DNA of 64,000 nucleotides from contig NC_135254.1 in assembly GCF_964204865.1 (NCBI RefSeq), positions 17,799,001 to 17,863,000 on the forward strand, in the 5' to 3' direction. The number at the start of each line of letters is the position of its first letter. Position 1 is the stretch's first letter. Below, piece after piece: positions 19,745 through 42,860 of the stretch. Source of the DNA: Styela clava (taxonomy: Eukaryota; Chordata; Ascidiacea; Stolidobranchia; Styelidae). A program made the translations under genes and the position numbers. A model generated the notes under the pieces. That model was not told the origin of the DNA. It did not search any database and saw nothing but the letters and a program-made list of their open reading frames with translations.

Positions 19745-21362
19745 ATGTGGCAAAGATTAATTTTCTTGAGCTTGCTATTTAGCGTGTTTTGTGAAACATG
19801 CCATGGTGAAAGGTCCGAAGACTCTCTTATATGTAAACGAGTAGACAACGATGCTGCCAATGTTTTAATCACGGGCCCTCAAGGTCCTCCCGGTTTTCCT
19901 GGCTTACCTGGACTGGATGGAATACCAGGACTTGATGGTCAACCTGGATTACGAGGAATGGACGTAGACCACAACAGATTGGTAATTTTGGTTGAGCAAA
20001 CTGTCGCGGAAGGTAAATTATGTGTTTGTTTAACGCTTATTAAGAATGTTTAGTAAACTACGAACTGTCTATTTATTGCGTTTTTAACAAGAGTCCATAA
20101 TCAATATATATGTACTAATTTATCCTTTGCTATTTCAATCGATCGTAGTTGAGTCACTTCAAAAAGACTACTTCAAAGTTCTTTTGACCGAACTTTCAAA
20201 ATAATAATATAAAATTACTACCAAAATGTGCTAAATATAGCCCGTGGCATCATAATATCGTTTAAGCATAATACCGAAATTACGCCCGAAAATGATTTTC
20301 GCCAAGAACGCTGTAGAGTAGGAGCTTGATTGATTTTTTCCATTTTGTAATAGAGTAAAAAGTATAGCCTACATCATAAGATATTGATACTTTGGTTTAG
20401 TTCATTTTCCCAAACTGCCACTGTAGGTGCAGAAAAACGTTCCTCCGATTAGTATTCTTGTTCGTTTTGATGGCCGTATGTTATAAAACTTTTTTATTTC
20501 GGTGAATAGATATTACTGAATTTTACTATAATGCTATCCGTCGCTTTATTATGTTTTTATGAATAAAAATTTTCCATTTCAGCTGTTCATGCGATGAAGA
20601 ATGTAAACCCACAGCCAGACTTCCGATGCGAGAATCTCAAAAACAAAGTCGTAGTCGATGGCAAATGTTTTTTCACTGTTTTGCCGGAGAATGAGGTCAA
20701 ATTTCTTGCAGCTGAGCAGCTGTGCACCGATAGAGGAGCAACACCAGCAAATATTTACGATCGCCATCAATTTGGCAAGATAATGAATTATCTTCATGAG
20801 ATAAGACAAACATTTTATCACGTATATCTTGGAATGGAATTTGATCCTGAGGTTAGTAGACATTTATGAAATCAACATATATATTGCCGATAATTCACCC
20901 ACATCATGTCATTTTCCTTCCAAAAATTGTTTCAAATTAACTAAAAAAGGGTATTGTTTGAGGTAACATTTAGCATATATATTTACAACTGTATTTCAGA
21001 TGAAAACCGCTATACATGTCATAATTGCAAACAACTTTCAATTAATATTAAAAATATGGAAAAACCTTCACTCAAATGGTTTGAGGGTTTCATATAATCT
21101 TTTAACATGCATTGTTTTACCTATGCATTGTAATATTTGACAGAATGACGACCTCACCTTCTATGACGGAAGTCCAGCTCAATACACAAGTTGGCGCTCC
21201 GGAGATCCCGTTAGACGTGTGGCGGATCCGGTGAAAATGACACGAGTGGCCATAAACGTTATGAGTGATAGCAACAACTCCGGTAATGGAATGTTGACCA
21301 CGGCTATGATTTGGCCTAAAACGGGAGTACTTTGCGAATCTGCAGTAGAAAGAGAGCCTTAA
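19745..21362 (+). CDS. Lectin-like copy A: secreted collagen-stalk C-type-lectin-like protein
   Basis: Exons are 19745-20012, 20583-20851 and 21144-21362 (phases 1 and 0), giving 251 residues. Residues 1-21 form a signal peptide ([15 protein letters not shown]). Cys30 lies just before the collagen part and could link chains. Residues 44-73 are ten uninterrupted Gly-X-Y triplets, 74-89 a short hydrophobic neck, and about 105-246 a C-type-lectin-like domain ([41 protein letters not shown]). This is the layout of collectins, which are soluble trimeric pattern-recognition proteins. However, the collagen part is very short, and the calcium-site motifs EPN/QPD and WND are absent, so sugar binding by the usual mechanism is doubtful. 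The ATG used is the first in the frame; a GTG 51 bp upstream was ignored. Role in defence is inference. Confidence 0.85.
20437..20500 (+). pseudogene. Fossil signal-peptide exon in intron 1 of copy A
   Basis: The sequence translates as FLRLVFLFVLMAV then a YKT motif, which aligns with the signal peptide of copy E. The original ATG is now ACG and the collagen-coding part is gone. Copies C and D carry the same fossil at the equivalent position. Confidence 0.65.
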
Positions 21363-24702: not shown

Positions 24703-26211
24703 ATGTGGCAACGATTAATTATTTTGAGCTTGCTATTCAGCGTGTTTTATAAAACATGCCATGGGGAGAGATCCGAAGACTCTCTTATATGCAAACGAGT
24801 AGACAACGATGCTGCCAATGTTTTGATCACGGGACCGCAAGGTCCTCCTGGTCCACCTGGTTTAATTGGAATGGTTGGAATCCCGGGATTTGATGGCCTA
24901 CCTGGACCACCAGGAATGGGCGTAGACTACAACAGATTGGAAATTATGATTGAACAAATAGTCGCAGAAAGTGAGTTATGTGTTTTCAAAATTAAAATCA
25001 TTATGTGAAAATATATTCTATGCTATTTGGTTTTGCGAATTAATTGCTCAGGTATTTTAATCATCTCAAAAAGAATTTTCAAAATAATATTTTTATGCAC
25101 TTGCAATTTTTCCATAGCCTACTCATACCATCGTGATATTGTTTTTAGCATGGTACCGAAATTCTGCCCGAAAATGTTTTGATTCATCGGTTAAATGTGA
25201 AGACCAATGTATGTATAAACGCTATCGAAGTTTATATAGGGCCTAATATACATACAAATTTGAAGCAACTTTATAATTTTGCATATAACTTTACTATTGT
25301 TTTCGATTATACCTTAAACTCAAGTCGTTGCTATACTCTGAACATTTCGCCTCCTCATTATTTCGGTGAATATATATGACCAAATTCCACTAAAATTGTA
25401 TTGGTTATTTTAATATAATTTGATAAATAGAAATTTTTAATTTCAGCTATTCATTCTAAGGAAAATGTAAAATCACAGACTTCAAACTTTCGATGCGAGA
25501 ATCTAAATAACAAAGTCGAAGTTGATGGAAAATGTTTTTTCGATGTCGTGCCGGAGAATGAAGTCAAATTTCTTGCAGCTGCGCAGTTGTGCATAGATAG
25601 AGGAGCAACACCGGCAAATATTTACGATCGCCATCAATTCGGCAAGATAATGAATTATCTTCATGAGTTAAGACAATCATTTTATCACGTATATCTTGGA
25701 ATGGAGTTCAATCCTGAGGTTAGTATACATTGCTATGCTGCCCATAATTTAACGACGTCACATGTTGCTAATTTTTGTCTTGGGAATTGTGTCAATTGAA
25801 TGAAAAAAAAATCGTGGGAAGGAACATTTAGAATATTTTTAAATTTAATCCTTATCGGAATACAAATTTGCTTGAACATTATGAACATAAGAAAATTGTT
25901 ACTCAAAATAAAGAGTATTTATGTTTTTTTTCTAAATATATAAACACTGACTCGGCGTAGAAATTTTTACTCTGCAATGTAATATTTGACAGAATGATGA
26001 ACTCACTTTCTATGATGGAAGTCCAGCTCAATACACAAGTTGGCGCTTTGGAGATCCCGTTAGACGTGTGGCGGATCCGGTGAAAATGACGCGAGTAGCC
26101 ATAAACGTTCTGAGTGACAGCAACAACTCCGGTAATGGAATGTTGACCACGGCTATGATTTGGCCAAAAACAGGAGTACTTTGCGAATCTGCAATAGATA
26201 GAGAGCATTGA
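24703..26211 (+). CDS. Lectin-like copy B
   Basis: Exons are 24703-24970, 25447-25718 and 25993-26211, encoding 252 residues with the same domain order as copy A. The exon 1 donor is GTGAGT, so the joint codon is ACT (Thr) where the other plus-strand copies have Ala. The ten triplets differ most from copy A after the third (GLI, GMV, GIP, GFD), while the flanking [13 protein letters not shown] block is identical. In exon 2 it has FDVVPENEV, and the third exon carries WRFGDP and INVLSD, features shared with copy D. It appears intact and probably encodes a functional secreted protein. Its intron 1 is about 476 bp and shows no clear fossil exon. A MITE lies in the 3' flank before the poly(A) signal at 26822-26827. 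Confidence 0.85.
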
Positions 26212-28855: not shown

Positions 28856-30407
28856 ATGTGGCAAAGATTAATTTTCTTGAGCTTGCTATTTAGCGTATTT
28901 TGTAAAACATGCCATGGTGAAGGATCCGAAGACTCTCTTATATGTAAACGAGTAGACAACGATGCTGCCAATGTTTTGATCACGGGTCCTCAAGGTCCTC
29001 CTGGTTTACCTAGCTTACCTGGACTGGATGGAATACCAGGACTTGATGGCCAACCTGGACTACCAGGAATGGACGTAGACCACAACAGATTGGTAATTTT
29101 GGTTGAGCAAACTGTCTCAGAAGGTAAATTTTGTGTTCATTTAACGCGTATTCAGAATGTTTAGTAAACTACGGATTGTCTATTTATTGCGTTTTTATAA
29201 GAGTTCATAATCTGTATGTACTAATTTATTTATTGCTATTTTAATCGATCAAGTAGTTCAGAAACTTCCAAAAGACTACTTCAAAGTTCTTTTGACCGAA
29301 CTTTCATAATAATATTATAAAATTATTACCAAAATGTGCTAGATATAGCCCGTGGCATCATAATATCGTTTTAGCATAATACCGAAATTACGCCCGAAAA
29401 TGATTTTCGTCAAGAACGCTGTAGAGTTAATAGGGGCTTGAATGATACAACATATGATATATATTGATACTTTGGTTTAGTTCATTTTCCCGAACTGCCA
29501 CTGTAGGTGCAGAAAAATGTTCCTCCCATTAGTGGTCTTGTTTGTTTTGATGGCCGTATATAAAACTTCCTTATTTCGGTGAATATATATTACTGAATTC
29601 TACTAAAATTCTATCCGTCACTTTATTATGTTTTTATAAATAAAAATTTTCCATTTCAGCTGCTCATGCGATGAAGAATGTAAACCCACAGCCAGAATCT
29701 CAAAAACAAAGTCGAAGTCGATGGAAAATGTTTTTTCGCTGTCTTGCCGGAGAATGAGGTCAAATTTCTTGCAGCTGAGCAGCTTTGCACCGATAGAGGA
29801 GCAATACCAGCAAATATTTACGATCGCCATCAATTTGGCAAGATAATGAATTATCTTCATGAGTTAAGACAAACATTTTATCACGTATATCTTGGAATGG
29901 AATTTGATCCTGAGGTTAGTAGACATTTAGGAAATCAATATATTGCCGATAATTTACCCACATCATGTCATTTTCCTTCCAAAAATTGTTTCAAATTAAC
30001 TAAAAAAGGGTATTAGTTAAGGTAACATTTAGAATATTTACAACTGCATTTCAGATAAAAATCGCTATACATGTCATAATTGCAAACAACTTTCAATTAA
30101 TATTGAAAACATAGAAAAACCTTCACTCAAATGGTTTGATGATCTTATATAATCTTTTAAATTTGAATTTTTATTCATGCAATGTAATATTTGACAGAAT
30201 GACGACCTCACTTTCTATGACGGAAGTCCAGCTCAATACACAAGTTGGCGCTCCGGAGATCCCGTTAGACGTGTGGCGGATCCGGTGAAAATGACACGAG
30301 TGGCCATAAACGTTATGAGTGATAACAACAACTCCGGCAATGGAATGTTGACCACGGCTATGATTTGGCCTAAAACGGGAGTACTTTGCGAATCTGCAAT
30401 AGAATGA
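28856..30407 (+). pseudogene. Lectin-like copy C, broken by a 14-bp deletion
   Basis: Exon positions correspond to 28856-29123, 29660-29914 and 30198-30407. Exon 2 is 255 bp instead of 269: compared with copy A, 14 bp are missing between CCACAGCCAG and AATCTCAAAA. This removes the conserved Cys of the RCEN motif and shifts the frame, with a stop about 20 codons later. The rest of exon 2 and exon 3 remain open in the old frame, so the break looks recent. A second change in exon 3 creates an early TGA, shortening the tail by three residues. One collagen Gly is also replaced (GLP SLP). Splice sites, promoter footprint and poly(A) signal are intact, so it may still be transcribed. A sequencing or assembly error is possible, but the independent exon 3 stop argues for real decay. 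Confidence 0.85.
29517..29580 (+). pseudogene. Fossil signal-peptide exon in intron 1 of copy C
   Basis: It reads MFLPLVVLFVLMAV then YKT, with the ATG retained. This is the same relic as in copies A and D, without the collagen part. Confidence 0.65.
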
Positions 30408-30743
30408 GAACCTTAAATTGGCATAAACAAGACTACACTCATCTCGTGTCGTATATATCAACTTATCATTCTATTTCTAACGACTATCACGATCCAAAAT
30501 TTGTCGTCTGAAAGCAAATGTATTTCAATGTTTGTTTCTGTTACCACACATCTTCACTATCTAGAAGTTTTATGAATTTGTCGGAGTAAAATTTGATATT
30601 GCTGATTTTTATACATGTCAGTAATGCGATCCAAACCTTGACAGAAATATAATACTGAAATATATTATGAAGACAAATTGGACTGTTACTGTATAGGGTG
30701 AATACTAATTTTTTACCTGCAATTGATGTTAACATTGCCATGT

Positions 30744-33630: not shown

Positions 33631-34500
33631 ATTCGCAAATGCCTAGAATTACCTAAATCCCTTCATCTGTTCAGTTAACGTGAGGGATTTTATGTGGTTA
33701 CAGTAAGCTTCGACCTACAGTAACATTAACCGACAGATTTCCATAGTGAGAATTTTTCCATTAGCCAGTGTGACGCGATAGTTTTTTGTAAAAACAGTCC
33801 TTCATCTAAATCTCACTAGAAATTAATAATACATATCGTATGAAATCTATTTCATAGCAATTCAAACCGCACTATGGTTTTCAATATTCTACTCCATTTT
33901 ATACATTTCTACTCTTTTCTACACGGTAATGTAATGGTGGTGATTGTATAATTTCAAGAGAGTTTCATCGACAATATATATACCACAATGTATTCTATCT
34001 TAGGAAATCTCAAAAAATATTTTGATGAGTATTGAAACGTGAGTCGAGCAAAGCTCGAACAAGCATCAGTCACATGCGCATGATTTATTTTTCAAACTAA
34101 ATGCTTGTCATTTTGATATCGGTAGATGAACAACTTCATCTAGTATAATAACAACATTATTAATCTTGATAATTTGCAAATGTTGCAATGCAAATGTGAT
34201 GAATTGTGAATTCCAGCAATTTGCGAAATCGTATTCAACCAATTTAATATTTAATCATAATTCAAAAGTTTGAAACAAAAAAAGATAAATACGTTGCCGC
34301 CATACTGTATCACCCCATTTCATCTCGAAATACTTTTCATTTTTGAGCAATTGGTAAAGTGATTCAAAATCGGTGTGGGGTATTGCTAAATTATTATTTA
34401 ATAAAGTGGGTTTTGTATGAAAGTACATTTACTTACATACTTTTAAACTCAGTTCTGTTACGAGTACTACTAAAAGTCCCCAATCGATACACCAAATTCA

Positions 34501-34560
34501 GGTCAATTGGCAGATTGCGGTTCTCTATTATCCTATTTGCAGTTTAATTTATTTTGTGCA
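34501..34560 (+). promoter_or_regulatory. Conserved upstream footprint, copy D
   Basis: It contains CTCTATTATCCTATTTGCAG followed by TTAATTTATTTTG. The first TTATCC core is kept and the second is lost. Confidence 0.5.
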
Positions 34561-34802
34561 GACGTCAGCATTTACGTGTAAGCAAAGGCTCAATGAGTAC
34601 CTGACAAAAACCTAAAAAACCTTTCAATATCTTTTAAATTTTTGACTCGTTGAGTTGAAAAATTTCCATTTAACCTTTTTCTTTTTTGTTATGCTTCAAA
34701 CAGAGCACAAACAGAGTTGAAAGAATGGTACTTTTATAACGTTTTGAATCTCTGGTGAAGTTGATTATTGCTGATAGAGCTGGATACATTGCAGGTGCTG
34801 AA

Positions 34803-36990
34803 ATGTGGCAACGATTAATTTTCTTGAGCTTGCTTTTTAGTGTGTTTTGTAAAACATGCCATGGTGAGCGATCCGAAGACTCTCTTATATGCAAACGAGT
34901 GGACAACGATGCTGCCAATGTTTTGATCACGGGACCGCAAGGTCCTCCTGGGTTACCTGGTTTACCTGGACTGGCTGGAATGCCCGGATATGATGGCCTA
35001 CCTGGACCACCAGGAATGGACGTAGACCCCAACAGATTGGTGATTTTGGTTGAGCAAATTGTCGCAGAAGGTAAATATGTGTTTATTTTACGCGTATTCA
35101 GAATTTTTTAGTAAACTATGGACTGAATATTTATCGCGTTTTTCAAAACACAAAAGTCCATAATCAGTATGTATTATTTCATTCTTTGCTATTTTAGCTT
35201 TGTGACTTAATCGCTAAGAAAGTTTAGTCATCTCAAAAAACTACTTCAAAATATACTTGACCGAAATAATGTTCTCATGTATAATTGTGCTACGCATGGG
35301 ATCTATATATTGATTTTGACTTTACAATTTGAATATAATTTTAGTATTATTTTTATTTATCCATAAAACTCAAGTCGTTGCTTATATATATGGTAAATAG
35401 ATGACTCGTACCAATGTTTATTGTTCATCACTGACTAATTAAGAGTGGAACTGTAAATGAAAATTTCAGATTGAATTTTGTTGCAATTTGTTCGTATAAA
35501 GAAAGTATAATAGAAAATCAGTTCAATTAGCAAATTTAGATTCACATCGAACTGATCCATTCGGTGCAAAACAAACAAAAAAACTTTTTTTCACCAAGAA
35601 CGCTGATGAGTTGATTGATTGAAACTTGATTGATTTTTTTTCTTTTTGCAATAGAGTAAAATATATATAGTACTGTTTATATAACATAAGATATTGCTGC
35701 TTTGCATTAGTATTTAATTCATTTTCACAAATTGCCGCTGTAATTACAGAAAAATGTTCTCTCGAATAATGGTCTTATTCGTTTTGATAGACGTATATTA
35801 CAAAACCTGCTAGTGTGTGAGATAGTCCGACTCTCTTGTGTGCAAACGAGTCGAAACGATGATTCGAATGTTTTGATCTTCTGCCCACCACGGCAGACCA
35901 GGACGAGATGAACTAGTGGGTTTTCCGAAGATGCGTTACCCTGCTATAAAGGTTCACCTGGCATTGGGGGTAGATTACATGAGACTGGGGATAATGACAG
36001 AGCATAATTTGGCAAAAAGTATTTTGAAATATACCCATAATATGTAAAACCCCGCATGTTTTATATTTATAATTAAAAAACGATTTCCGAGTTTTTTATT
36101 TTTCGTTTCTAAACATTTTGCCCTCGACTTGATTCCTTATTTCGGTGAATATATATTACCAAATTCATCTAAAATTCTATTCATTATTTTATCTTTGTTT
36201 AAATAGAAATTTTCCCATTTCAGCTATTCATGCGATGAAGGATGTAAAACCCCAGACTTCCGACTTTCGATGCGAAAATTTAAATAACAAAGTCGAAGTC
36301 GATGGAAAATGTTTTTTCGCTGTCTTACCGGAAAATGAAGTCAAATTTCTCGCAGCTAAGCAGTTGTGCATCGATAGAGGAGCAACGCCGGCAAATATTT
36401 ACGATCGCCATCAATTCCACAAGATTATGAATTATCTTCATGAGTTAAGACAAACATTTTATCACGTATATCTTGGAATGGAGTTTGATCCTGAGGTTAG
36501 TAGTCATTAATATACTGTCAATAATTAATTATGTCACATGTTGCTAATTTTTGTCATAAAATTTGTTTCAATTCAATGAATAAAAAAGGGTATCGTGACA
36601 GGGAACATTTAGGATATTTTCAAATTTAATTTGTATTGGAATACAAATTTAGATTGGTATTAAGAACATAGGAAAACTATTACTCAAAAGAAAGAGTATA
36701 TATTTATTTTTTTAATATATAAACACTGACTTAGCGTAGAAATTTTTACTCTGCAATGTATATTTTGACAGAATGATGAACTTGCCTTCTATGACGGAAG
36801 CCCAGCTCAATACACAAGTTGGCGTTTCGGAGATCCCGTTAGACGTGTGGCGGATCCTGTGAAAATGACGCGAATAGCCATAAACGTTCTGAGTGACAGC
36901 AACAACTCCGGTAATGGAATGTTGACTACGGCTATGATTTGGCCTAAAACAGGAGTACTTTGCGAATCTGCCATAGAGAGAGAGTCTTGA
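34803..36990 (+). CDS. Lectin-like copy D
   Basis: Exons are 34803-35070, 36224-36495 and 36772-36990, encoding 252 residues: signal peptide, Cys30, ten Gly-X-Y triplets (ending [12 protein letters not shown]), neck, and C-type-lectin-like domain. In the domain a His replaces Gly in [11 protein letters not shown], and the third exon has NDELAFYDG and WRFGDP. The protein frame is intact. Intron 1 is about 1.15 kb, twice as long as in the other plus-strand copies, because it contains a full-length fossil exon 1. The exon 2 donor GAG|GTTAGT is the same as in copies A-C. It is closest to copy B in exon 3 and in intron 2. Function as a secreted recognition protein is inferred from domain order; ligand unknown. 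Confidence 0.85.
35754..36018 (+). pseudogene. Full-length fossil exon 1 inside intron 1 of copy D
   Basis: At 265 bp it is close to the family's 268-bp exon 1. It starts with ATG and reads [19 protein letters not shown], then an in-frame TAG. The VYYKTC part matches VYYETC of copy E better than the VFCKTC of its own host gene. The following DNA still matches the DSLICKRV region, the collagen start and the neck, with frameshifts, and it ends at a GT where the old donor was. It is a dead exon from an E-like gene. Confidence 0.85.
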
Positions 36991-37314
36991 ATTGGAATAA
37001 GCATGACTCTATTGTCTATACTCATCTCGTATCGTGTATATCAACTTATTATTCTAATTCTAAAGACTATAACGATCCAGAATTTCCTAGAGTTTGTTGA
37101 CTGAAAGCAAATGTATGCTAATATTTGTTTTTACTATCCAGCAGTTTTATGAATTTGTCGGAGTAATATTTGATATCACTAATTTGTATGCCCGTCAGTA
37201 GTGTGATCAGTACCATGACAGCAATGAAATATAATATGAAGTCAAATATGCATGTTACTTTTTAGGGTGAATATCAAAATTTCATTGGTAATTAATGATA
37301 AACCGTTACTGTGT

Positions 37315-37320
37315 AATAAA
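37315..37320 (+). terminator. Poly(A) signal, copy D
   Basis: AATAAA in the conserved context ACTGTGTAATAAATAC. Confidence 0.6.
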
Positions 37321-37888
37321 TACTATAACGAGTAGTTTATATGTGTTAATGTGATATGGATCGATCGGATTTGTTTCTGGGAACAGAAAGTTATGAATAT
37401 TCCTCTCACATTTAGTGTTATGGGCCTGTTAATGAAGGGGATAAGCGCTGCCAACGGGATTGCATATCCTGAGAATTATGTAATACCCTAAGTCAATCTT
37501 TTTAATGGTTATAAGAATTCATTGATAAACGCTTCGATAGTGGAGTTCTGTACATAATGCAAAATGACACAGAAAAGTGCAATAAGTTGATGCTCTTATG
37601 CAGGGTGTGGTTACTTAATTCCAAATCCATAATCTTAGGGTACTTTGTGACTCAATGTAGTAACATTTTCTGGTACTAAGACTTATAATTAGAGCCGTGA
37701 TTTTCTTTATGCAAAACATCGGTGATGAACGTACGAAATGAAGTGAACTGTTGGAAAAATTCAACCACATTAGTCCAACACAAAACACAGTCAGTTTGTC
37801 ATGAAAAATCGCAATTTATTGTACAGGCGGTATTCTCACGTGGTGCAACACCCGAGTTATCTTTTTGCCGCTCTCGATTAGGAGATTG

Positions 37889-38278
37889 TTAGTGGGGATC
37901 GTGAAGTTCCCTCCGAAGAGACAGCCCAGCATAGACCGATACGGCGACCCATAGGGCGCAGTTGGCCCCACAGATTATCATACGGGCCGACGCGCCATCC
38001 ATCTGGCTTAGAGGAGTTATCACGATTGAGAAAGTCGATAACAGGGCCTGCGTCGCTTCCTGGACTCGATAAAACCTCGCCACAACCTTGCCCATTCGAG
38101 CACGAGCAACCGAACGGACCATAGAGTCGGAAGAATTCAAAGTTTTGAACGCCTGGGTAACCCGGAAAATGTCCGTTTCGTGGGCAATATTCGGGACGCC
38201 CAGACCCCCGACCGCAGTTGTAGAACAAACAAAAAAACAGCTGACAGGTCCGGGCTGGTAACCAAAAACGGTTCTCAT
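37889..38278 (-). mobile_element. LINE fragment, reverse-transcriptase C-terminal region
   Basis: The minus-strand frame encodes a GGLGVPNI motif followed by ETDIFRVTQAFKTLNSSD and then MVRSVARARM. A GGLG-P motif followed by a QAFK-type helix and an S-D-VR motif occurs after the RT domain in site-specific (R2/NeSL/HERO-like) non-LTR retrotransposons. The GC content is well above the neighbourhood. Both ends are truncated; the clade assignment is from memory and tentative. Confidence 0.55.
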
Positions 38279-39237
38279 CAGACAACGGCAAAGATTCAGT
38301 GGAAGTTTAATTTATTAGACTGAAAACTAAGGAATTTTCACCGAGACGCCTTGTAAAATTAATCAGTGCAAATCGTCCGTGGTAGTAAATTCTTTCTTTT
38401 TTCAATAAACCATCCTGGATTATCTGTCATTTTGTTTTAAACGAAAGGAATATAGCTATGAATGGCGTCATACTATATCGTCGCATTTTTGAAATTATTG
38501 AATGCATTCGTAACGAGATTCTGGGTACATAATGAATAGAGAAAACATTGACGTAACTAGAGCAGTTATGTTCAAGGAACAAAGATATGGTACCCCTTTA
38601 TGAGCAGCCATTTTTTTCATAAATTTTTATAGCCAACAAGTATTTTAACTTGAAAAAACTAAAATTAGATGTTGACCAAATCGAATTTTTTGTTCACTTT
38701 GGGCCTTGTTGAGCAAGTTTTTGATATACTTGCTTTTATCTAAAATTTTGCAGTTAAAAAAAAATAGTAATATTTTCGTCATATTAATACAGATATTGAA
38801 TTTAAAACTTCATTATAGCGTCATAATATAGTTTAGTAAAATCCAATAGTATTATCTTTCTAATTTTCAGATTTTGAAATTTTTCCCAATGAGATCTTGC
38901 GTATGCAGCTGTGTGCATTACCGTAGTTCAATTACAGCATAATTTCTTGACCCTTTGCTGCCGCGGCACGGTTTAATGATCACAGCAGACTGTTTCCTAC
39001 ACTAGCTATGTAGTTCCTACAGTTCGATTTAGTTACAAAGTTCAAGCCTCTTGCTCCTGTTGGAATAGTATGCTATTCCTCAACTTCTCACCCCAACTAC
39101 AATCAGAATAAACACTAAAAACACATGAAATGATGATTCACTAATGTATATATAGTTAGCAACAGAAAAAAAAACGATATTGAAATCTTTCATCATGCTT
39201 TGGCCTTTAAGTAAAATAGGAACATGTTGATGCATTT

Positions 39238-40825
39238 TCAGATCTCTCTCTCTATTTCAGCTTCACACAGTACTCCTGTTTTGGGCCAAATCATAGCTGT
39301 TGTCAACATGCCATTGCGAGGGTTATCTCGGTCGCTCAGAACATCTATGGCAACACGTGTCATTTTCACAGGATCTGCCACATTTGGAACTGGATCTCGA
39401 CCCCGCCAACTCGCGTATTGAGTTGGAGTTCCATCATAAAGAAAGAGGTGATAATCCTGTCAAAAGATTTAGCAATTGCACTTCAGAGTTTTTGCCTAAT
39501 CATTTTTGTACATTTTTTACCGTATCAGAGATATCATATATACACCTAATGGGGTTTCAAGATAATAATTAAATTACACTCATGCCTCGAAATTAAATCT
39601 GAATTTCAACGACCAACAATAGTGTCGTGTACATGGAGGGCAGTGACATTTTATACACATCAAATGCTGCTAATTAAAGTGTATAAGAAGGCTCTGTGTG
39701 CTTTATAATTATAAAGCATTATGTCATTAATTAATGATATATATATATGCCTGTTTCAAGAAAAAGGTAGTTTGGGGTACGGTGCGACTGGGCTGGCGCT
39801 CTATAAAAGGAGCAATAATCATGATTGGTTGGCTTTGTTTTTCAAAATCTTGCAAAATGATTAAGTGTGTTTATATTTACTTTGTGTCAATATGTTACAA
39901 TGCAATCTAAGTTTATCTCCCCCCCCCCTCCCCCCGTTTCAAACTGTTTTGCCAACATTACTGATAGTTTCGCAAATTTCGTGCAACTGTCTCTTGATTA
40001 AAAATTTACAATTAGCTCTGTATGTGTCAGCGATTGTTTGTGACCATCAGTAATGTGATTGTTTTTGCGTAAGAAAAAGAATGCAACTCTATGAAAAAAA
40101 AATATTAACAATCTGTTTACAAACCGAAGGATTGAATTCCATGCCAAGATATACATGATAAAATGTTTGTCTCAAGTCGTGAAGATAATTCATTATCTTG
40201 TTGAATTGATGGCGATCGTAAATATTTGCTGGTGTTGCTCCTCTGTCGATGCACAACTGCTCCGCTGCAAGAAATTTGACTTCATACTCAGGCAAGACAG
40301 CGAAAAAACATTTACCATCCACTTCAACTTTGCTCTTTAGATTCTCACACCGAAAGTTTGGCTGTGGGTTTCTATTTTTCGATGAATGAATAGCTGAAAC
40401 GGAAAATGAGTGATATTTAATAAAAAGTCGTCAGAAACAAGAATAAAAATGAAAAAGCTGAAACCACGCACGTCTATATGTATGTTTTGTGGTCTTAAAA
40501 TACTGATTTACTTATAGCAAAAAGCACCGATTCTACAATAAACACTTATCATTGTACCTTCTGCAACTTGTTGCTCAATTGAAATCTCCAATCTGCTGTA
40601 GTCTAACCTGGGACCTGGAGCACCTGGCAATCCAGTTCGACCTCTACTTCCTTTAAGACCAGCAACTCCAGGAAAGCCTGGAGGGCCTTGCGGGCCCGTG
40701 ATCAAAACATTGGCAGCATCGTTTTCTACTCGTTTGCAAATAAGAGAGTCTTCTGATCTCTCGCACAAACAAGTTTCATAATACACGCCGATAAAAAAGC
40801 ACAAGATAATTACTCGCTGCAACAT
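39238..40825 (-). CDS. Lectin-like copy E, diverged and inverted
   Basis: Exons on the minus strand are 40825-40558, 40393-40125 and 39456-39238, with the same lengths and phases (268, 269 and 219 bp) as copy A, giving 251 residues. The signal peptide (MLQRVIILCFFIGVYY) and the ten triplets (GVA GLK GSR GRT GLP GAP GPR) are diverged, and the collagen part is basic rather than acidic. The lectin-like domain keeps [21 protein letters not shown] and [11 protein letters not shown], but exon 3 has YASWRGRDP and SDRDNPRN. Intron 1 is only 164 bp and intron 2 about 670 bp. An in-frame ATG exists 90 bp upstream (40915), but exon-length conservation favours 40825. It converges with copy D. It may be closest to the ancestral gene form. 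Confidence 0.85.
39917..39935 (+). repeat. Poly(C) tract in intron 2 of copy E
   Basis: A nearly pure run of C with one T, striking in an AT-rich region. Such tracts are prone to length errors. Confidence 0.8.
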
Positions 40826-41125
40826 TTTCTTCGCCCAAAGTATATCCAGCAGTGTTTGCGATTCGAACTCACTAGCAATATTACCGCATGTTATATATCC
40901 ACTCAAAGTTGGCAAACATTGCTTGCTTTTTTTCAGTCACTGTGCGGACCATGTTACCAAAAAAACATCCGTACGAAAAAGTTACATTATATATAGTAAT
41001 TTATATAATTATACCACTTGATGATTATAAATATAAACCCATTCATCGCCACAAATCATGTTATATATTTTAAAACCACATATGGAAAGGTCACATCTAA
41101 GAATACAATATCACGAGGCCTTGAA

Positions 41126-41180
41126 CAGGATAAATCAAGCCGTAAACAGGATAATAAAGAACCTCAATTCGTCAATTGAC
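41126..41180 (-). promoter_or_regulatory. Conserved upstream footprint, copy E
   Basis: On the minus strand it reads CTTTATTATCCTGTTTACGG and then TTGATTTATCCTG, about 330 bp before the ATG. Little else in the 5' flank of E can be aligned with copies A-D, so selective retention is plausible. Confidence 0.6.
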
Positions 41181-42860
41181 GTAAATTCAATGTATCAGTT
41201 TGGGACTTTTGGTGAAATTGCAATAAAGTACTTTTCTTTGAAGTGGCCCTGAATTGCCAACAATTTCTTTTAATCGAGTGATGCAATATTCCGAGTTTTG
41301 ATGACAACGTCCTATTCTTTTTATTTTCATTAAAAATTTTGAATCATATTTTAATATTCATTCATGTGACAACGATTGCGCGAATTGTAAGAAATTTCAA
41401 TACGATACGCCCGCCATTGTACATCAAAAAATTGTTATTGTGATATTATTGTACAATAAAAAATGTTCATATTACAAATGCGTATACAATAGGTGTTTCT
41501 TACAAGTGAAGCATGTGTATGTGATTGCCTGTGCTTTGCTTTACTCATAAGCTATACGCGGTGAATCAAAAATAGATAGTATACTAAAGTATACTAAAAC
41601 ATACTGGAAACTCGTTCAACAGAACGTTTTTTACCGTTTACAAGAACCAGGGAATTCAGAAACTAGATGTGATACTGTTTACGATATATTTTTACATGTC
41701 GACTTTTTTGTTCCAAACAAGAATAGATTTAAAAAGCCATACTTAGACTTCATTGATATTTAATTGACATTGATATTAAATTCTCAGAGTTGGAATTTTG
41801 TACATTAAATGCTTTTAATTTTGAATATGACAGTCCTGTTCTGACATTGGTGCTCAGTTTATTCACTTTTGGCCTTTGACTTTTTTGTCAACTATTTTTT
41901 ATTATAACATACTATTTCAGCGCGGTGTAACTAAGCAATCATCTGCCTCTTCTGTATATGTAAATAAAAATACAGTAGCTCATCTATATAAGCCATTTAA
42001 GCAGTCATTCACTAGACTTTGTTCGGAGCAGAAGTGTGAAAAAGTGCAACGCTTGAGATATTTTTTATTACCAAGATGCTCATAATATGAATTAGGCCAA
42101 ATGGGTTATTTCATGACGAACTAACGCCATCATACTGTCTATTTGCTCGCAATAAAAGCAGACTGTCAGCGAGAGCAAATTGTGATATCACAAAAACTAT
42201 CTCCCAAATACACACGTCGAGTCGGAATCCTATCACTATGGATCCTAATTTATTCATATTTTAAAGGTTCAACAAAAGAAATGGTTTCAGCAAAATGTAC
42301 GAATTGTAGGAAACTGCCTGGTTTTCATCTTTCGATAGAAAGAACAGCAATATGAATGATGAAATTATTCCGTCAAAGCTCGACAAAATCTTAACCATCG
42401 GCCACTTCGGGTTTTCTGAAAAGAAGTATTACAATTAGACACAATTAAAAAAACATAAGCAATAGCTCGATTTAACGTCATTCGCATTCTATATCCTGAC
42501 GCAATCGATATAGCCACGGGTGTAGCATGGTCATATCGTCGAAACGTAGTCGATAGCTCATCGCAGAAATTTATGGTGATTATGGTACTAGTACTTGTAT
42601 GCATTATCAATAAATAATTTTCTTGGCAATAATAAATGCTTCTTTCTAAAACATGGAATAAAAGCAATTTTTATAATAGTGGGGCCAATGTTCTGATTCA
42701 TCAAATGTCATAATCGAATAAAAGCAAGCTTGAGATTGGAAGCAGCCTTATGTCTTCTGTTATGTTACAACTGATAGGTATGCGAATTGCCAATCAGATA
42801 TTTAACAAAGATTCTCGGGCATGAGCATGCATATTCTAATAGGTTTATATTAATAGTATT
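41181..42860. other. AT-rich interval, no supported gene
   Basis: Several frames of 60-100 codons are open (for example 42365-42667 on the minus strand and 42470-42612 on the plus strand, the latter with a protein-like RILYPDAIDIATG), but none has convincing splice or start context. Confidence 0.3.

Follow-up and report, generated by a model that had tools for sequence, protein, structure and literature searches.

A decayed copy of the first exon inside intron 1 of lectin-like genes in Styela clava, probably a relic of tandem exon duplication

At the Gr39a gustatory receptor locus of Drosophila, tandem-duplicated exons that each bear a start codon feed a set of shared 3' exons, and the part of the published account drawn on here describes the first of them, exon A, as frameshifted or degraded in two species (PMC2204066). 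Similarly, the 5' cassettes of the sDscam genes of Chelicerata and the clustered protocadherins are described as first exons or cassettes arranged in tandem, with a promoter for each and splicing to common exons (PMC4835542). Here, we describe a dead first-exon copy in a family of secreted lectin-like genes of the ascidian Styela clava. The stretch analysed, referred to below as the window, comprises 64,000 nucleotides (nt) of contig NC_135254.1 (C5:17799001-17863000) in a 376.6-Mb assembly and holds five members of this family, genes A to D on the forward strand and an inverted gene E, all with three coding exons. Intron 1 of gene D contains the decayed copy, which we call the fossil. This locus resembles Gr39a in having duplicated first exons before shared 3' exons, one of them degraded, but in the Gr39a account several of the exons are still used and the losses fall between species, whereas in Styela clava, of two exons, one has died or disappeared in all six paralogues of a single genome (PMC2204066). 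The sDscam and protocadherin arrays, as that source presents them, are kept for isoform diversity, in contrast to the two copies, one of them dead, found here; on this analogy, the sDscam genes of Chelicerata would show the working form of such duplicated first exons (PMC4835542).

In this family, exon 1 encodes a signal peptide, a short linker, a collagen stretch and a neck, while exons 2 and 3 encode the lectin-like domain. The extra exon of gene D lies in intron 1, upstream of the shared 3' exons, and is homologous to the live first exon from start to donor. We confirmed that it is a dead copy of exon 1, as the first-pass annotation of this DNA had proposed: the start codon, stop, collagen and neck parts and old donor that it listed are all present, and a profile built from the six live exons of A-D and of two further genes, F and G (gene E and the fossils being left out), detects the copy in a scan of 81 kb with an E-value of 4.2e-17. 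Its ATG, at 35754, is followed by in-frame TAG codons at codons 20 and 24, and relative to the frame of gene E it carries deletions of 1, 8 and 4 base pairs (bp) as well as insertions of 9 and 1; the old donor GT stands at 36019-36020. The frame is thus broken and evolution is near-neutral, with the reservation that, in comparisons with G, the fossil is less diverged than the intron upstream of it. A separate observation concerns the bases just 5' of the start codons, where a splice-acceptor-like GCAG or ACAG precedes the live start codon in B, D and F and the fossil one in D, F and G (in D, at 34790-34803 and 35740-35754), while A, C and G lack it at their live start codon.

The fossil is not confined to gene D. 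A whole-genome DNA search with the D fossil returned three places, namely the query locus plus two others 6.4 Mb distant on the same contig, where a second cluster of the family (C5:24217000-24234000) contains genes F and G. The live-exon profile detects these two fossils as well (E-values of 4.9e-24 for F and 1e-26 for G). Alignment of the intron 1 sequences to exon 1 by means of profiles gave significant matches for the D, F and G fossils and for stubs in A and C, the stubs being found with a fossil profile that included 60 bp of upstream flank. Overall, three of the six genes with this layout retain a full fossil (D, F and G), two a stub (A and C) and one, B, none (Table 1). The stubs had been proposed earlier with extents of 20437-20500 in A and 29517-29580 in C; their homology is upheld, but in the alignment the exon part ends at 20491 and 29568, respectively, and the remainder is later intron. 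The fossil profile found no match in the 164-bp intron 1 of gene E.

Table 1. Coordinates of first exons, fossil copies and conserved upstream blocks (window positions unless prefixed by C5).
Feature	Position	Strand	Basis or remark
Fossil first exon, D intron 1 (signal, linker, collagen, neck)	35754..36018	+	live-exon profile, E-value 4.2e-17; stops, deletions
Fossil first exon, F intron 1	C5:24222114-24222389		81% identical to D fossil
Fossil first exon, G intron 1	C5:24225840-24226113		73% identical to D fossil
Fossil stub, A intron 1, ~55 bp	20437..20491	+	start codon now ACG; profile match 20381-20491, E-value 2.9e-23
Fossil stub, C intron 1, ~52 bp	29517..29568	+	ATG kept; profile match 29461-29573, E-value 1.5e-21
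B intron 1, fossil deleted	24971..25446	+	aligned with G, which retains the fossil
Conserved upstream block (putative promoter), D	34437..34585	+	profile from all 7 genes, E-value 1.4e-44
Putative promoter block, E, homologous to A-D	41115..41213	-	profile without E (A-D, F, G), E-value 3.2e-19
Possible decayed promoter-block piece, 211-238 bp upstream of D fossil ATG	35516..35543	+	1.9 bits, E-value 6.8 in 81 kb
Live exon 1, A	19745..20012	+	gene model
Live exon 1, B	24703..24970	+	gene model
Live-type exon 1, C	28856..29123	+	gene model
Live exon 1, D	34803..35070	+	open frame, donor GTAAAT
Exon 2, D (first part of lectin-like domain)	36224..36495	+	gene model
Exon 1, inverted gene E	40558..40825	-	gene model; 164-bp intron 1 without fossil match
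Live exon 1, F	within C5:24222776-24223203	-	second cluster
Live exon 1, G	within C5:24226786-24227146		second cluster

In the DNA tree of exon 1, a branch with support of 100/99 separates the six live exons from the three fossils, each set forming one clade. Because the fossils form one clade, the exon copy was present before the A-D/F/G genes separated. The G fossil stands apart from those of D and F (91/87), in keeping with the host genes, among which B and G pair (86/88) against A, C, D and F; D and F are likewise paired in the trees of the upstream region (100/99) and of exon 2 (63/50). With regard to lesions, an in-frame 9-nt insertion is common to all three fossils, and both D and F carry a 1-bp deletion and an insertion of the same size, while no frame-breaking lesion is common to G and D/F, so that the exon may still have had an open frame when the family arose and been lost in parallel thereafter. 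The fossil was probably already dying when the tandem family radiated, with erosion proceeding separately in each member.

The manner of decay speaks to whether the copy is still in use. D and F differ by 0.159 within the fossil, compared with 0.149 in the upstream and 0.148 in the downstream intron, and in the D-G and F-G comparisons the downstream intron (0.218 and 0.185) has diverged about as much as the fossil (0.238 and 0.199). Differences at codon positions 1, 2 and 3 of the fossils amount to.16/.13/.21 for D-F,.28/.22/.27 for D-G and.21/.22/.21 for F-G, compared with.27/.16/.42 between gene E and live B. Drift much like that of the adjoining intron and roughly even over codon positions makes a used coding exon unlikely, and the fossils appear to have been under little or no constraint since the family separated. 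We therefore regard it as very unlikely that the fossil serves as an alternative or regulatory exon, such as a poison exon: an AG shortly 5' of the ATG and the donor GT do survive in D, F and G, but in addition to this intron-like drift B has lost the exon and A and C keep only a truncated piece. It is highly improbable that exon 1 was copied through RNA (a retro copy), since in D, F and G a donor GT still comes after the exon and no exon 2 sequence is fused to it; moreover, although BLAST homology to the exon of gene E starts at about the ATG, as a retro copy would suggest, profile matches in B, D, F and E extend some 10-30 bases 5' of the start codon.

The account that we consider probable is an in-gene tandem duplication in which the downstream copy of exon 1 died and the upstream copy stayed live. 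Exon 1 would have been duplicated in tandem in the ancestor of A-D/F/G, around the time at which this lineage split from that of E, the order of these two events being a matter of inference. The duplicated unit probably included the promoter, and the outcome would have been two candidate first exons ahead of the shared exons 2 and 3. The downstream exon may formerly have been used, spliced to exon 2; consistent with this, the fossil consensus differs from gene E with an excess at third positions (.24/.22/.47), which points to coding constraint on that path, a path that includes E's own branch. The upstream copy would have kept the job, with the transcript from the upstream promoter presumably still spliced from the live donor to exon 2, skipping the downstream copy within intron 1. 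At about the time the family began radiating, the downstream copy would have lost constraint, and erosion would then have run its course by lineage, with stops and frameshifts that differ between D/F and G, an apparent single shared deletion in A/C and complete deletion in B. What the data show is the homology of the extra exon, its shared position, its single clade, its near-neutral drift and lineage-specific lesions, and the upstream block common to gene E and the live exons.

This upstream block, a putative promoter judging by its place and conservation, contradicts the earlier claim of a new promoter in A-D and an old one kept by E, as the same block is detected in E by a profile from which E was left out (Table 1) and sits there at a similar distance from the ATG as in A-D. 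Matches to the promoter profile upstream of the fossils are no more than suggestive of the fossil once having had a promoter copy of its own. Besides the possible piece in D, the 81-kb scan gave a match upstream of the F fossil at 5.9 bits (E-value 0.41). In a shuffle test made after the match had been noticed, the D/F/G consensus reached 5.1 bits where the best shuffle reached 3.1, and F alone reached 5.9 bits where the best shuffle reached 5.5, each beating 1000 of 1000 shuffles.

Which two of the live, fossil and E exons are sisters was assessed over 89 columns with distant outgroups (L062, L064 and L068, later also L073 and L074). Of the ten loci from which the first three were taken, four (L066, L067, L071 and L072) were dropped as near-copies of L064 and three (L065, L069 and L070) because the exon was unreadable in that frame; L076 and the partial L075 were also left out. 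With L062, L064 and L068 together, live and fossil exons are sisters (94/94) and the pairing of E with the fossil is disfavoured (approximately unbiased (AU) test, p=0.039). Each of these outgroups singly also returns live plus fossil at 85-87%, with p-values against E plus fossil of 0.08-0.17, and the same grouping is found in subsets without the signal peptide or with collagen and neck only.

A number of results weigh against the proposed duplication history or against individual steps of it. D and F, which pair among the fossils, do not do so in the trees of live exon 1 and of exon 3 (G being left out of the latter). In comparisons with G, the fossil values given above fall below those of the upstream intron (0.320 for D-G and 0.304 for F-G), so that some early constraint is possible. 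On the fossil stem alone, the third-position excess is slight (9/85, 11/81 and 16/79 at the three positions), which limits the support for former use of the downstream copy. The live-plus-fossil grouping is lost without the collagen columns, and L073 and/or L074 as outgroup join E with the fossil at 84-94%; with all five outgroups, live plus fossil receives 55% and the test against E plus fossil gives p=0.41, no rejection. Given this disagreement among outgroup sets and the dependence on collagen columns, the sister pair of E, live and fossil exons depends on the outgroup. As for the promoter remnant, a chance match at 5.6 bits comes close behind the 5.9 bits of F, and chance matches rank between F and D. 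The promoter profile found no match upstream of the fossil in G alone, a longer promoter profile without E gave no remnant match at an E-value of 1 or less, and a five-row consensus including the A and C introns carried no signal, 338 of 2000 shuffles scoring as high. Pairwise comparisons with at most 4 of 200 shuffles as good numbered 5 of 35 (D, F and G with live A, and F with live D and live F).

The resemblance of the fossil to gene E bears on a different origin for it. In the signal peptide, the fossil is nearer to E than to its host in D (43/63 versus 35/63), F (42/63 versus 28/63) and G (37/61 versus 32/61, with live B taken as the host). In the remaining parts, the D fossil is about equally close to E and to its host (linker 54/71 and 52/71, collagen 29/66 and 32/66, neck 32/55 and 34/55), and over the whole exon it matches E at 158/255 (62%), live D at 153/255 (60%) and live B at 159/255 positions. 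A relaxed site-pattern count, in which sites where live and fossil exons differ were scored for agreement with E, gave 12 sites for the fossil and 8 for the live exon of 23 over nt 1-60, 1 and 9 of 11 over nt 61-135, 5 and 11 of 26 over nt 136-215, and 5 and 6 of 13 over nt 216-268. By these comparisons, the E-like character of the fossil is limited to the signal peptide. The VYYKTC signature that had been read as matching E rather than the host does set the fossil apart from the host exon of D, which reads VFCKTC, but live B and G read VFYKTC, so that the signature comes down to a few residues.

In its strongest form, the first-pass view would have the fossil stranded by an exon replacement or gene fusion, in which an A-type gene lay upstream of an E-type gene and the A-type exons 2-3 and the spacer were deleted, so that A-type exon 1 came to splice to E-type exons 2-3 and left the E-type exon 1 in the intron. 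We judge this unlikely. The E-like signal peptide of the fossils and the possible promoter remnant agree with it, as does the rate of synonymous divergence (dS) of exon 2 between E and A/B/D (0.38-0.81), which is below that of exon 1 (0.81-1.08). However, exon 3 (0.72-1.12) is as diverged as exon 1. Relative to E, the live exon 1 therefore has about the same age as exon 3, and its import from an older paralogue looks unlikely. The presence in E of the live-exon promoter and the loss of E-likeness beyond the signal peptide count against it as well. When a profile was made of the interval that separates live donor and fossil, its matches below an E-value of 0.1 in the two clusters were all in family introns. 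The tree of live and fossil exons resolves the fossils as one clade, whereas the pairing of E with the fossil, which a replacement needs, is returned by two outgroups (L073 and L074) and opposed by three (L062, L064 and L068). Of the first-pass view that an E-like ancestor lost its first exon to a new promoter and exon placed upstream, what stands is a first exon that has died, inherited in common by these genes and lying downstream of the live one; the new promoter does not. That replacement history is possible, but the two points that specifically supported it, a new promoter and an E-like signature, either fail or carry little weight. With respect to exon 2 itself, the dS of E (40125-40393) is 0.57 to A and 0.38 to B, lower than in exons 1 and 3, and 0.81 to D; the low values to A and B may reflect gene conversion.

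Returning to the tandem duplication, a more far-reaching version of it, which we put forward as doubtful, is that the ancestor ran two competing promoter/first-exon units, each with a secretion signal and a collagen stalk, before one lectin domain, that the upstream switch was fixed before the radiation, and that gene E, having a single first exon and sharing the promoter, closely represents the condition before duplication. If the upstream switch was fixed at that stage, the six paralogues would represent repeated losses of one exon along different paths.

The genes themselves are in varied condition. The reading frame is unbroken in A, B, D and E, while exon 2 of gene C (gene at 28856-30430) has a 14-nt frameshifting deletion, making C probably a pseudogene unless the assembly is in error at that spot. 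Gene F is broken, its exon 2 being 7 nt short and out of frame, as is gene G, which has frame breaks in exons 1 and 2 and has lost most of exon 3. G resembles B, and F resembles D in the upstream region and fossil; both look like pseudogenes now. One of the two clusters probably arose as a block copy of the other. Distant relatives, found by protein search with exon 2 or exon 1, occur in further arrays at C17:15296786-15341626 and C18:15446286-16080954. Tandem Repeats Finder reported 0 arrays over 34000-41500 of the window. A search of the assembly for the COX1 family gave no match, and a 20-base pattern of the ascidian spliced leader had 0 matches, the latter being no proof for or against a tunicate.

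Vertebrate collectins consist of a signal peptide, a short collagen stretch, a neck and a C-terminal lectin-like domain, in that order, and the proteins of this family share that order of parts. They differ from collectins in their three coding exons and in a domain remotely like that of the PLA2 receptor, without a Pfam lectin match. For D and E, the Pfam collagen match is sub-threshold (22.9 bits, cut-off 27.2) and the Pfam search reached no lectin family; in the PDB comparison, protein D matches a PLA2-receptor chain over the lectin-like part (E-value 5.7e-7), so the domain is only remotely like solved ones. A literature search of open PubMed Central papers found no paper on this lectin-like family.

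The decayed exon copy is real but is essentially an ordinary relic of an old exon duplication. Nothing fundamental changes about exon evolution, because dead alternative first exons are documented elsewhere, as at Gr39a (PMC2204066). The earlier description of a rare visible case of first-exon replacement keeps the death of a first exon but loses its rarity, as this kind of event is known, and replacement is only a possibility. For this family, the analysis corrects the idea that gene E shows the older promoter, and it provides a replicated record of a duplicated first exon dying inside a living gene, with six sister introns at three stages of decay.
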